From positions 124,001 through 188,000 of the forward strand of contig NZ_JACYXJ010000004.1 in assembly GCF_014842925.1 (NCBI RefSeq): a DNA stretch of 64,000 bases, in the 5' to 3' direction. Made by a program: the position numbers and the translations under genes. The notes below the pieces were generated by a model, which had not been told where the DNA came from, ran no database searches, and saw only the letters and a list, made by a program, of their open reading frames with translations. This stretch comes from Roseibium polysiphoniae (lineage in GTDB: Bacteria > Pseudomonadota > Alphaproteobacteria > Rhizobiales > Stappiaceae). Each line of letters begins with the position of its first letter. Within the stretch, counting starts at the first letter, position 1. Below, piece after piece: positions 34,866-40,457 of this stretch.

Positions 34866-35478
34866 GTGCGCCCTCACGTTTACCCCAGTTTTACCGTGGC
34901 TAAAGCGTCGGGTCACGTTCGGGTCGCGTTCCTGTCCGGACGCGGCTCGTGCGACGACCCTGGCTGCCAGCCTCGGCTCTGTCGAAATATCTAACGTTCC
35001 GCCCCCATTAAAGCGAACCGTCGCATTGACGCAGCAGTTTTGTACTGCCACCGAGTGCCCGATCTCCGCCGGGCCTTCGCTTCAGAATTGCCCCCATTTG
35101 GCAATTCTCTGGTCGGCTCGGGATGGAAGCCTGTTTCTATCCGCGCTTTTAAGCTGCCACAATCCAGGCACGCTAAAAGGGACAGTGGTCCTGTCCTATT
35201 CCGAGCGGCGCGAACATGCCAGATTTCGAAGCGAGGAGCAAGAGCGTTTATATACTCTAAAATTATATTTGTTTCGCCTCTCAAGTTGCGAGTGGCCATT
35301 TTAATAACTTTAAACGCATTGGCGAGTAAGAATGTTGCGCGGCTGCGTTTGGGGTATGGTTCCTGCTCTCCCAAAGGTCACAGCCGTTTGATTTCCTATT
35401 GATGGAAGAAATGCTCATTTCTTTCTCATGACACGGCTGAATCAGGAACGAAGCCTGTCGTGTTCAGAGATCCTAGAC
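34866..35478. other. Long intergenic region between gltB and the bufferin operon
   Basis: About 610 nt with no convincing gene. It must hold the divergent promoters of gltB and of the DUF2282/DUF692 operon. An AT-rich patch (about 35248-35275, on either strand a TATA-like run) stands out in otherwise GC-rich sequence. I found no clear hairpin terminator, tRNA or known riboswitch. Two frames of about 120 codons on opposite strands cover its middle but show no recognisable protein. Confidence 0.5.
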
Positions 35479-35491
35479 GGAGGAAGTTTCG

Positions 35492-35791
35492 ATGCAGAAA
35501 AAGGTCATGACTGCCGCGATCGTTGCAGGCGCTGTTGCAACCGCAGTAGCCGGTGTCGCCGCACCAACAGCCGCAAATGCGCAGGCCAAGGAAAAATGCT
35601 ACGGCGTTTCCCTCAAAGGCAAGAACGATTGCAAGGCAGGCGCGGGCACGACTTGCGCAGGCACCTCAACGGTTGACTACCAGGGCAACGCATGGACCCT
35701 CGTGCCAACGGGCACTTGTGTTTCCATGGAGCTGCCTGATGGCCGCAAAGGCTCTCTGACTGAGCTCGACCGCGACCTTCCGAAGGCGTAA
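35492..35791 (+). CDS. bufA1: DUF2282 family bufferin-type precursor peptide
   Basis: A 99-aa exported small protein that I take to be the precursor of a modified metal-binding peptide. Residues 1-30 are a signal peptide ([20 protein letters not shown]...ANA). The mature part has exactly four cysteines at 36, 47, 55 and 76, in the family pattern [21 protein letters not shown] and VPTGTC, and DYQGNAW between the third and fourth. In bufferins studied in Caulobacter the neighbouring MNIO enzyme converts some cysteines into thiooxazole-type groups that bind copper (knowledge from the literature). GGAGGAAG lies 5 nt before the ATG. It is first in a four-gene operon. Confidence 0.9.
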
Positions 35792-35811
35792 TCTAACGTT
35801 CAGCGATCGTG

Positions 35812-35836
35812 CCCGGGCAGGGAAACCCTGCCCGGG
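35812..35836 (+). promoter_or_regulatory. Stem-loop between precursor and MNIO genes
   Basis: CCCGGGCAGGG, loop AAA, CCCTGCCCGGG: a perfect 11-bp GC-rich stem 20 nt after the precursor stop. No T-run follows. It is well placed to keep precursor mRNA abundant while limiting read-through into the enzyme genes, a common arrangement in peptide-modification operons. Confidence 0.75.
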
Positions 35837-35864
35837 ACCGTCTCAATGCCCCATGAGAAGTCCG

Positions 35865-36767
35865 ATGACCCACTCATTCGCCACGGAAACATCCAGGAAC
35901 GACAGGGTTTCCCCTCAGTTGCCGGCGCGGGCGGGTGCGGGTCTCAAGGGTGAGCATGTGCTGCAAATTCTCGAGACCAGACCGGACATTGGTTTTTTCG
36001 AGGTTCATGCGGAAAACTATATGGGCGCTGGTGGTGTGCCTCATCGCCAGCTCGAGGCTATTCGCCGCGATTATCCGATATCACTCCACGGCGTAGGCTT
36101 GTCGATCGGTGCAGAGAGGCCGCTCGACACGGATCACCTGCAGCGTCTCAAGTCGCTGAATGAGCGCTATGAGCCGGGTCTTTTTTCTGAGCACCTCGCC
36201 TGGTCGACCCATGACACGACCTACTTCAATGATCTCCTGCCCGTACCTTATGATGAAGCGACGCTATCACGCGTTTGCGACCATATAGATGGGGTGCAGG
36301 AGACGCTTGGGCGGCGGATGCTTCTCGAAAACCCATCGACCTATATTGCTTTCGAGCAGAGCTCCATGACCGAGCTTGAGTTCCTCAAACGGATTGTCGA
36401 GCGCACGGGCTGTGGTCTGCTCCTGGACGTCAACAACGTCCACGTTTCCTGCGTCAACCATGAGAGGTCTGCAGAAGACTATCTGGACGCTTTTCCGATG
36501 GCGGCGGTTGGTGAGCTCCATCTTGGAGGGCATGCGCCGGATGAGGATGATGCTGGACGTCCGCTGTTGATCGATGCTCATGACCGGGCTGTGGATGATG
36601 CCGTTTGGCGGCTCTACGAAAGGGTCGTTGATAAGTGGGGGCCACTGCCGACATTGGTCGAGTGGGACAATGATGTTCCTGCATGGCCGGTGCTGTTGGC
36701 TGAAGCGGATGCCGCAGATTCAATTTTGGCTCGGCGTGGTAAAGAGGAGGCGCGGCTTGTCGGTTGA
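35865..36767 (+). CDS. bufB: DUF692 multinuclear non-haem iron oxidase (MNIO)
   Basis: A 300-aa TIM-barrel enzyme of the MbnB/DUF692 family, expected to use a di- or tri-iron centre and oxygen to modify cysteines of the precursor. Likely metal ligands are visible in order: H48/E50 (VHAENY), H75 (SLHGVG), E109/H110 (FSEHLAW), E155/N156 (LLENPSTY), D189/N190/H193 ([10 protein letters not shown]), H219 and H223 (ELHLGGH), D237/H239 (DAHDRAVDD) and E266/D268 (LVEWDND). ATG 35865 follows GAGAAG and is preferred to ATG 35853. It overlaps the next gene by 11 nt. Confidence 0.93.
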
Positions 36768-37536
36768 CGGTCAACCTGCTGCACCTGCACTGCCTGAGTT
36801 CAGTGAGGCCCTTCTGGACACATCCCTGCCAGTTCCGAGCGGTGTCGTTGGGCCTGATGGCAAACCTGCGCCCAAGCGTTTCACCGTCTATCGGAACAAT
36901 GTTGTTGTCAGCCTCGTTGAGGCGATCGAACAGACATTTCCCGCGGTTCAACGCATGATTGGAGAAGACTACTTCAAGGCGCTCGCGCGGGAGTTTGTTG
37001 TCGAGAAGCCACCGAAATCACCGGTCCTGATGTGGTACGGAGCCGAGTTTCCCGCATTCCTGGAAACTTTTGAACCTTTGGCTGCTTATCCCTATCTCGC
37101 GGATGTTGCGCGGGTCGAATGGAACTGGCTGCAGGCCTATCACGCGGAAGATGCCATGCCGCTTTCACCCGAGGAACTTGCCGAGGTTGCGCCTGACGCA
37201 CTTGGCAACATGACATTCAAGATTCATCCGGCTGCAATTGTTGTGGAGTCTGCCTGGCCAATCCTGTCCTTTGTGGCCGTGAACAGGTTTTTGCCGGATG
37301 ATGACATGGCCATCGATCTCAAAGATGCGCAAAGTGTACTGATTACGCGACCGGATCTGGACGTGGAATTGATGCTGCTGCGGCCCGGCGGGGCATTGTT
37401 TTTGGAGCAACTGCGCTCAGGATCCACATTGGGTCAGGCCGCTGAGGCCGCAAGTGTCGGGGTCGAGAATTTTGACCTGTCAGGTGTTCTGACAGATTTT
37501 TTATCCGCAGGGGTCTTTCGTACCCTTGCATCATGA
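36757..37536 (+). CDS. bufC: DUF2063 protein, MNIO partner
   Basis: A 259-aa protein that in related operons is the partner of the MNIO enzyme, probably delivering the precursor. The N-terminal helical DUF2063 domain (about 10-105; [57 protein letters not shown]) is followed by a mixed C-terminal domain. A TTG start at 36757 is chosen because AGAGGAGG lies 6 nt upstream and the domain begins soon after; the frame is open much further back inside bufB but out of context. The overlap with bufB indicates coupled translation. Confidence 0.88.
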
Positions 37537-37581
37537 GGCTGTGCCGGCTCGGTTCTGGTCACATTGCCAATTGGGGGAAAT

Positions 37582-38166
37582 ATGAGCACGCTTATCGGAC
37601 TACTCGTCAGTCTCTATCATACGGTTTTCGGCACGCTGGAGCGCCTTACGAATGGATGGTTCATCGGGCTTGCCGCCCGGTTTGTCTTCGCAAGCGTTCT
37701 TCTTGTCTATTTCATCAATTCTGCCCTCACAAAGATCGGCACCGGAATCTTGGGCTTCCTGTCTCCGAGCTCCGGTGCATATGCACAGATCCTTCCGGGG
37801 ATGATGGAGCAGGTCAGTTACGACACAAGCCAGATTGCCTTCTTCCCCTTTGGGCTCATCGTTCTTTTGGGAACGTGGAGTGAATTTATCCTTCCGGTGC
37901 TTGTTACCCTCGGGCTTTTCACAAGAGCGGCCAGCCTCGGGATGATCGTCTTTGTGGTGGTCATGAGCTATGTCGACATCACCGGTCATCATGTTGATGC
38001 GGCAACCATCGGGTCGCTTTTTGACGGCAACCCCGGTTCGCTTATCGCTGATCAGCGTTTGATGTGGGTTTTCGTGCTTCTGGTGCCGATGCTGAAGGGC
38101 CCAGGTTTCGTGTCGCTCGATGCCCTACTTGGTTCCTATTATCGCAAGCGTGAACGCTACTACTGA
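37582..38166 (+). CDS. DoxX family membrane protein of the bufferin operon
   Basis: A 194-aa inner-membrane protein with about four hydrophobic segments (WFIGLAARFVFASVLLVYFI, FFPFGLIVLLGTWSEFILPVLVTLGLF, SLGMIVFVVVMSYVDI, LMWVFVLLVPML). It matches the DoxX-like genes that end bufferin (gig) operons; a role in redox or membrane electron transfer is possible but unproven. ATG 37582 follows GGGGGAAAT; an in-frame TTG at 37564 is less likely. It sits 45 nt after bufC and 45 nt before the threonine aldolase gene. Confidence 0.85.
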   Translation: MSTLIGLLVSLYHTVFGTLERLTNGWFIGLAARFVFASVLLVYFINSALTKIGTGILGFLSPSSGAYAQILPGMMEQVSYDTSQIAFFPFGLIVLLGTWSEFILPVLVTLGLFTRAASLGMIVFVVVMSYVDITGHHVDAATIGSLFDGNPGSLIADQRLMWVFVLLVPMLKGPGFVSLDALLGSYYRKRERYY

Positions 38167-38211: not shown

Positions 38212-39264
38212 ATGAATTTTTCCAGCGATAATTGGGCGGGAGCCACGGCGCCGGTGATGGCTGCCCTGGCCCGTCATTCCACCGGGCTTGCCCCCGCATA
38301 TGGTTCTGATCCACTGACCGAGAGCGTCACGGCCCGGTTTTCGGAGATCTTTGAGACTGACGTCTCAGTGTTTTTCGTCGGGACGGGCACTGCGGCCAAT
38401 TCGCTCGCCCTTGCTTCTTTCGCCAAGCCCGGCGGTGCGATCTTCTGTCATCCCGATGCTCACATTCAGGTCGATGAGTGCGGTTGCCCAGAATTCATGA
38501 CCAGCGGTGGAAAGCTGGTCTCGGTTCCTGGCACGGATGGCAAGTTCACGGCTGAGGCGTTGCAGGAGGCAATGTCAGCTTTCCCTGATGGGGTCGTCCA
38601 TCACGGGCAGGTCGCCAGCGTTTCCATTACGCAGTCGACCGAGTGCGGCACTGTTTATACCCTTGATGATATCGCCCGGATCAAGAGCGTTGCGCTTGAG
38701 CGGGATGTTGCCCTGCACATGGATGGCGCGCGATTTGCCAATGCGCTGGTTTCGCTTAGCGCAACACCGGCCGAGATGACGTGGAAGGCAGGTGTAGACG
38801 TGCTCTCCTTCGGCGCAACCAAAAACGGTTGCTGGTGCGCCGAGGCAGTTGTGTTCTTCAATCGGGAACAGGCGCGCGGGTTCGAGTATTTCCGCAAGCG
38901 CGGTGGGCACCTGTTTTCCAAAAGCCGCTTTGCTGCCGCGCAGTTCGAAGGCTACTTCGAAGAGGATGCCTGGCTTGGGACAGCGGCCCATGCGAATGAA
39001 ATGGCGCAACGGCTTGCCGATGGTATCCGATTGGCTGGTGGACGGACGGCTTGGCCGGTTGAAGCTAATGAAGTGTTTCCAGTCCTCAGGCGCGACCTGG
39101 TTGAGAGGCTTCGCGATGGTGGCGCGGCGTTTTATGAATGGTCGGCCAAGGGTCTGGATCTCTCCATTGCGCCGTCAGCGGATGAGGTCTGTTTGCGACT
39201 GGTCACGAGTTTCGCAACTTCCGAAGATGATGTGGATGTTTTCCTGAATTTGCTCGGAACATAG
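38212..39264 (+). CDS. ltaE: Low-specificity L-threonine aldolase
   Basis: A PLP-dependent fold-type I enzyme (350 aa) that splits threonine or allo-threonine into glycine and acetaldehyde. Family features are SSDNWAGATAPVMAALARH at the N-terminus, the cofactor region FVGTGTAANSLALAS, the Asp that contacts the pyridine nitrogen in LHMDGARFANALV, and the cofactor lysine in DVLSFGATKNGCWCAEAVVF. It follows the DoxX gene by 45 nt and may be read from the same message, though it is not a known bufferin component. A hairpin lies 20 nt after its stop codon. Confidence 0.92.
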   Translation: MNFSSDNWAGATAPVMAALARHSTGLAPAYGSDPLTESVTARFSEIFETDVSVFFVGTGTAANSLALASFAKPGGAIFCHPDAHIQVDECGCPEFMTSGGKLVSVPGTDGKFTAEALQEAMSAFPDGVVHHGQVASVSITQSTECGTVYTLDDIARIKSVALERDVALHMDGARFANALVSLSATPAEMTWKAGVDVLSFGATKNGCWCAEAVVFFNREQARGFEYFRKRGGHLFSKSRFAAAQFEGYFEEDAWLGTAAHANEMAQRLADGIRLAGGRTAWPVEANEVFPVLRRDLVERLRDGGAAFYEWSAKGLDLSIAPSADEVCLRLVTSFATSEDDVDVFLNLLGT

Positions 39265-39860: not shown

Positions 39861-40034
39861 TAGGCCCGATTGGCGCCCACAGAATGTAGATGGTGGCTGG
39901 CTTTTTCGCTTTCAAGTGGGCCGGCTTCTGCTGAACCGAAGATGAACAGGTGCTTCCGTTTCGGTTCAACCGCCTTGGGGCAAAGTCTCTTCAACATCAG
40001 TACAGCGCTGGTGATGGAAACGAGGAGACACGAG

Positions 40035-40457
40035 ATGTTCATTGCCAAGAAATTCATAACTGCACCAGTTGCCGCTGCTCTTGTCGCTGCAACTCTGATC
40101 GGCACCGCTCAGGCGGGTCCTCGCCAGCAGCAGGGTCCCGAGGCGCGCGGTAGCGCGGTCACGCTTGAAGTTGACTATCGGAAAGGGCAGCACAAGGGAC
40201 GTGGGCATGGCCCTAAATGGGGTCATGGTGAAAAGCGCGGCCATTGGGGCAAGATGGGCCCGCGGCAGGTCCGTCGCAGCCTGAAGCATCGCGGCTTTCA
40301 CAAGATCCGTATCCTAGGTGAGCGCGGTCCTGTTTATATGGTCCGTGCGCATGGCTGGCGCGGCATGCCGATGCGTCTGGTGGTTGACGGTCATACCGGC
40401 CAGATCCTGCGCAAACGTCCAATCCATCGTCACGGCCACTGGAACTATCGCTGGTGA
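40035..40457 (+). CDS. Exported His/Gly-rich PepSY-like protein
   Basis: A 140-aa protein with a signal peptide (MFIAKKFITAPVAAALVAATLIGTAQA) and a mature part of two sections. Residues about 48-75 are a His/Gly/Lys-rich stretch (GQHKGRGHGPKWGHGEKRGH). After that comes a PepSY-like beta domain (GPRQVRRSLKHRGFHKIRIL, VYMVRAHGWRGMPMRLVVDG, GQILRKRPIHR). The His content suggests metal binding, but I know no assigned function. ATG 40035 lies 9 nt after AGGAG; the longer frame from 39870 overlaps the hsp20 leader and is rejected. It is divergent from hsp20. Confidence 0.75.
   Translation: MFIAKKFITAPVAAALVAATLIGTAQAGPRQQQGPEARGSAVTLEVDYRKGQHKGRGHGPKWGHGEKRGHWGKMGPRQVRRSLKHRGFHKIRILGERGPVYMVRAHGWRGMPMRLVVDGHTGQILRKRPIHRHGHWNYRW

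Follow-up and report, generated by a model that had tools for sequence, protein, structure and literature searches.

A Buf1-type bufferin operon of Roseibium polysiphoniae, with a conserved upstream element and a hairpin between the precursor and oxidase genes

Operon identity and enzymes

By its sequence, the four-gene locus studied here is a complete, canonical Buf1 operon (bufferin/captophorin). It lies on the forward strand of the window, i.e. the whole 64,000-nucleotide stretch of Roseibium polysiphoniae DNA that was analysed, from contig 7 of a 4.58-Mb genome. We put the probability of this operon identity and product class, a Buf1-type bufferin (captophorin) operon, at about 0.85. The gene set, for a copper-soaking peptide, is a known one, and its copy here is ordinary and shared across the genus; since the bufferin peptide system is already known and widespread, an additional copy adds little. 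What its sequence opens to testing is the identity of the switch for bufferin operons in genomes that lack NrsF, and the way in which one operon yields a precursor in excess of its enzyme.

The first gene, bufA (35492-35791), encodes a DUF2282 (Buf1) precursor of 99 residues with a Sec-type signal peptide and a C-terminal RDLP tail. It is followed by bufB (35853-36767) for an MNIO (DUF692) oxidase of 304 residues, bufC (36757-37536) for a partner protein with DUF2063 plus an RRE-like part, and doxX (37582-38166, ATG at 37582) for a DoxX-family membrane protein of 194 residues. The order bufA-bufB-bufC, with the often present doxX, is that of Buf1. A sequence-only reading had placed the same genes at the same positions, as a four-cysteine DUF2282 precursor with DUF692, DUF2063 and DoxX proteins, and the Pfam families agree with it. 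The start of bufB is uncertain (35853 or 35865), while that of bufC, refined by eye, is most likely the TTG at 36757, which overlaps the bufB stop and stands behind AGAGGAGG. A profile search of the whole source genome gave one MNIO match and one DUF2282 match.

BufB matches PF05114 (E 4.9e-106) and clears the cut-off of the NCBIfam MNIO_BufB equivalog (387.8 against 310 bits), and its best named relatives are from Labrenzia/Roseibium, in a list which may omit records very near the source genome. This score, together with the gene order DUF2282-DUF692-DUF2063-DoxX shared with Caulobacter CC3254-CC3257 (PMC3511200), bears out the earlier view of the operon as bufferin-type. That view had also credited the oxidase with a full set of candidate iron ligands and proposed a search for missing ones by alignment to MbnB and BufB; all of them, and the catalytic Asp, are in place. 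In VcMbnB the iron ligands are H55, H91, E135, D165, N168, H194, D209 and E238, with H211 added for Fe3, and the proposed base is D240 (PMC8888699). Aligned to VcMbnB, BufB has as counterparts H79 (matched via RrMbnB and 3BWW), H114, E159, D192, N195, H223, D241 and E270, with H243, and D272 as the base. None of the ten residues (nine ligands and D272) varies among the 81 aligned BufB sequences, window included, and the BufB-type MNIO with complete iron ligands that marks Buf1 is present.

The iron ligand set is common to the methanobactin system MbnBC, which differs in its partner protein, MbnC instead of DUF2063, and in its product, which has an oxazolone-thioamide (PMC12452194), unlike the bufferin class. 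The locus falls outside methanobactin membership (an MbnB equivalog with an MbnC partner), as the MbnB model gave 53.5 bits against a cut-off of 325. Closer are the captophorins (fontiphorin, oxazolin and gonophorin), which share the combination of MNIO and DUF2063 (PME1) partner and a catalytic-base Asp in an E-x-D motif (PMC12668002), D272 presumably corresponding to FonB D249. The captophorins have EGKCG repeats whereas the window's precursor has a four-Cys DUF2282 domain, and the residue after the catalytic Asp is Phe in the captophorin enzyme and Asn in BufB. The Microbulbifer captophorin cluster (bulbicupramide), in which a copper-binding RiPP with thiooxazole is likewise discussed, is likewise conserved across a marine genus and is reported to be silent in culture (PMC12538549); it belongs to another genus than the window's.

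BufC matches PF09836 (DUF2063; E 2.7e-25, 88.9 bits against a cut-off of 27.2) and is under the HvfC equivalog cut-off. In Foldseek its AF2 model (mean pLDDT 93.2) matched the MNIO partner TglI (8hci, E 3.2e-7) and NGO1945 (3dee, E 1.2e-5), and reached no better than E 1.3 with the lasso-peptide RRE 6jx3; a PDB sequence search with BufC found none of the three. The model confidently predicts that BufC folds like the MNIO partners TglI and NGO1945. DoxX is just over the PF07681 cut-off (E 2.5e-5; 25.2 against 23.6 bits) and under that of HvfX, and its 194 residues compare with 150 in the Caulobacter protein.

The precursor

The precursor and its cysteine spacing had both been taken to be specific to this strain, and neither claim holds. 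The peptide is encoded in 44 of the 45 genus genomes, its own included; one other genome (G028) encodes it identically and the other 42 with 71-88 % identity. The gaps between its cysteines (C36, C47, C55 and C76), 10-7-20, are the spacing of the family: they were found in 110 of 112 tblastn hits among the fetched loci, with 10-6-20 in the remaining two, although these 112 hits count some species twice, since L003-L032 overlap the Roseibium loci of the BufB-relative set. With a genus-wide peptide and a family-wide spacing, the argument for strain-specific novelty fails.

BufA matches PF10048 (E 1.8e-24) and has the features of a Buf1 precursor, i.e. a DUF2282 domain with four conserved cysteines behind a signal peptide, which was judged by eye to be Ala-rich and of the Sec type. 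It scored 23.2 bits with the NCBIfam BufA2 model, under the cut-off of 60, and the NCBIfam search of the precursor gave no match to the BufA1 model at E 0.001. Alignment of 51 precursors shows no variation at the four Cys, N45, D46 and several Gly; A14, which falls within the signal peptide, is conserved in at least 90 % of them, which agrees with the leader role of the signal peptide in relatives (PMC13419390). The structure predicted for BufA has a mean pLDDT of 70.3, a middling confidence that is too low to check a C36-C76 disulfide, and neither sequence search nor fold search of the PDB gave anything convincing. Tandem bufA genes precede one bufB at three loci (L053, L065 and L110), and the pair in L053 has differing Cys spacing, 10-6-20 and 10-7-20. 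The sole genus genome of the 45 without a bufA match (G033) is also without the upstream element described below; its assembly is a draft in 680 contigs and has 5 % contamination.

Upstream element and intergenic hairpin

The conserved cis element GTCACAGCCGTTTGATTTCCTATT is located at 35377-35400 (+), 91 nt before the bufA ATG, and is a candidate promoter or activator site. The block was found by aligning 37 distinct upstream regions from Roseibium/Labrenzia and two near relatives (L045 and L049). With at most two mismatches, GTMACNNNCGTTTGATTTCCNATT is present in 42 of the 45 genus genomes, at 44 sites in total; coordinate comparison placed 42 of these just before bufA, one per genome, and the two extra sites (in G034 and G035), with 2 mismatches each, elsewhere. 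The reversed control pattern gave 0 sites in the same 45 genomes. Two of the 44 bufA-bearing genus genomes (G012 and G019) have no element at this threshold. A hit with three mismatches on contig C6 was considered as a second target and set aside; it is antisense inside an ORF which we take to be murB-like.

Of 62 loci outside Roseibium that have a bufA hit, 14 carry the exact 9-mer TTGATTTCC within 320 nt upstream of bufA and 48 do not, a few of the latter having too little upstream DNA. Because the 14 loci were picked by the 9-mer, only columns outside it are informative. Counted from the first base of the 9-mer, and ignoring kinship among the loci, these are T at -10 (12 loci), A at -8 (13) and C at -7 (11) on the upstream side, and T at +11 (12), T at +12 (11), A at +29 (13) and T at +33 (10) on the downstream side. 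In the window the A at +29 is 35417, 21 nt past the end of TTGATTTCC, while the T at +33, found in 10 of the 14 loci, is absent. The conserved A and T would be compatible with a -10 box, and a -10 region is tentatively placed at 35416-35421 (+). A consensus sigma70 scan was near chance and did not have 35377-35421 among its sites, and a literature search with the 9-mer gave nothing on topic by title among the matches listed.

One way to read the element is as an ECF sigma promoter with TTGATTTCC as the -35 box, rather than as one of the sigma70 type overlapped by an activator site, and this is a possibility that we lean against. The distance from the 9-mer to the conserved A, about 17-20 nt, favours an ECF promoter, as does the presence of sigma/anti-sigma genes in other Buf1 clusters (PMC12452194). 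However, with nearly one site per genome there is no obvious second site for autoregulation, and a TNAC block is also present just upstream of the 9-mer. No regulator gene beside the operon was recognised in the recurrent neighbour clusters of 36 loci, a minority of which were family-searched and some of which are antisense ORFs.

Control by sigmaF and NrsF, which in Caulobacter act on the operon CC3254-CC3257 through the promoter GTAACC-N16-CGAA (PMC3511200), probably does not apply here: NrsF gave 0 matches at E 0.001 in the source genome, with a positive Caulobacter control, and the conserved element is a different one. NrsF was found in 20 of 50 named genomes (19 above the family cut-off), these being taken from 80 BufB-relative loci after 17 Roseibium/Labrenzia and 13 others had been left out. 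The RDLP tail was present in 29 of the 30 NrsF-negative and 5 of the 20 NrsF-positive genomes (Fisher p 9.5e-8). Because the BufB tree offers only 4 independent pairs, with no significance and no support for repeated co-change, a functional association of tail and NrsF was set aside and the link treated as lineage history. Close DoxX relatives occur in 22 of the 50 named non-Roseibium loci, all in NrsF-negative genomes. The 9-mer precedes the bufB-adjacent bufA in 12 of the 30 NrsF-negative and 0 of the 20 NrsF-positive genomes; when scored before the first tandem bufA, L053 (NrsF-positive) and L110 also carry it.

The 61-nt gap between bufA and bufB contains a stem-loop at 35812-35836 (+) with 11 perfect pairs, a 3-nt loop and no T run after it. 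Perfect stems of at least 8 pairs are present in 49 of 79 homologous bufA-bufB regions, window included, against 10.4 expected from dinucleotide-keeping shuffles, and 35 of the 79 reach p <= 0.02 compared to 4/78, 1/78, 2/80 and 0/80 in controls, all of these being statistics that ignore kinship among the loci. The 110 nt before bufA are also rich in 8-pair stems (24 against 11.1 in shuffles). No perfect 8-pair stem is present in 30 of the 79 regions, including 6 of the 17 named Roseibium/Labrenzia loci, and the stem sequences diverge widely among loci. A terminator consensus scan was near chance and did not include 35812-35836 among its sites, and an Rfam search at E 1 gave nothing. The words hairpin, stem-loop and terminator are absent from the main text of both PMC12452194 and PMC12668002, and a wider literature search gave only unrelated papers among the matches listed. 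We infer a role for the hairpin in protecting the bufA RNA.

Taken together, our proposal, which we hold at slightly less than even odds, is that the Hyphomicrobiales branch of Buf1, with the RDLP tail and mostly no NrsF, has a private regulator with about one target promoter per genome, and that its precursor:enzyme ratio is set by an intergenic RNA hairpin, the sequence of which drifts while the shape is kept. Being almost limited to a single site in each genome, the element would be a clean bait for both regulator and inducer, and the question of the inducer, raised by the sequence-only reading, is now tied to a definite piece of DNA. Between gltB and bufA there is also an inverted repeat, GGACAG-N5-CTGTCC at 35180-35196, which most of the 37 regions in the upstream alignment share and which probably belongs to the divergent gltB.

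Proposed product and mechanism

Buf1 peptides are modified at their two central Cys and carry a disulfide between the outer ones, and bufferins are exported by Sec and sequester copper (PMC12452194). Every characterised MNIO-PME1 product carries 5-thiooxazole (PMC12668002), and both the 5-thiooxazole chemistry and the diiron state of relatives are documented (PMC12668002, PMC13419390). By analogy with the family, the window's peptide would have 5-thiooxazoles at C47 and C55 and a C36-C76 disulfide, and would bind copper.

Transcription would start from the dedicated element near 35377-35421, read by some factor, and the bufA-bufB hairpin would protect a short bufA RNA so that the precursor outnumbers the enzyme; these two steps are the least certain parts of the mechanism. 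BufC would bind the unexported precursor, probably via the signal peptide, and BufBC would use O2 and a mixed-valent diiron centre to convert C47 and C55, each losing 4 Da. The peptide would be exported and trimmed by Sec, C36 and C76 would pair, and the product would sequester copper in the periplasm.

It is unlikely, though worth considering, that the same operon has a main metal or trigger other than copper, be it a different metal or stress of the oxidative or sulfur kind, with copper binding as a secondary property. The Caulobacter sigmaF regulon, including CC3254-57, responds to dichromate and cadmium (PMC3511200), and other metals and DoxX-linked stress have been proposed for bufferins (PMC12452194). 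The lack of NrsF in the source genome may be counted on the same side, and for that reason the Caulobacter trigger is not simply transferable. The published bufferins and captophorins, however, bind copper (PMC12668002, PMC12452194), which counts against this alternative. That a decayed or repurposed copy yields an unmodified or differently modified peptide is very improbable: the modification is here assigned by family, but every ligand and the catalytic Asp are kept in all 81 homologues and the precursor in all but one of the genus genomes.

Genomic setting

The recurrent neighbours among 36 loci are a cluster of large reverse-strand ORFs upstream (gltB by position, 17 loci), an HSP20-like cluster (13) and a hydrolase-like cluster (12), names which derive from the window's own genes, from position and from sequence starts, the relatives having had no family search. 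Similar neighbours are present in distant Hyphomicrobiales. Given this recurrence, the buf locus looks like an old chromosomal locus and not an island. Directly 3' of doxX, at 38212-39264 (+), is a gene for a threonine-aldolase-like PLP enzyme (PF01212), and 14 of the 36 loci have, on one side of buf or the other, a cluster that includes its Roseibium counterpart (by position). Further downstream, the protein encoded at 40032-40454 (+) is rich in His, Arg and Gly and looks exported; it has no match in Pfam at E 0.01 and could bind metals.
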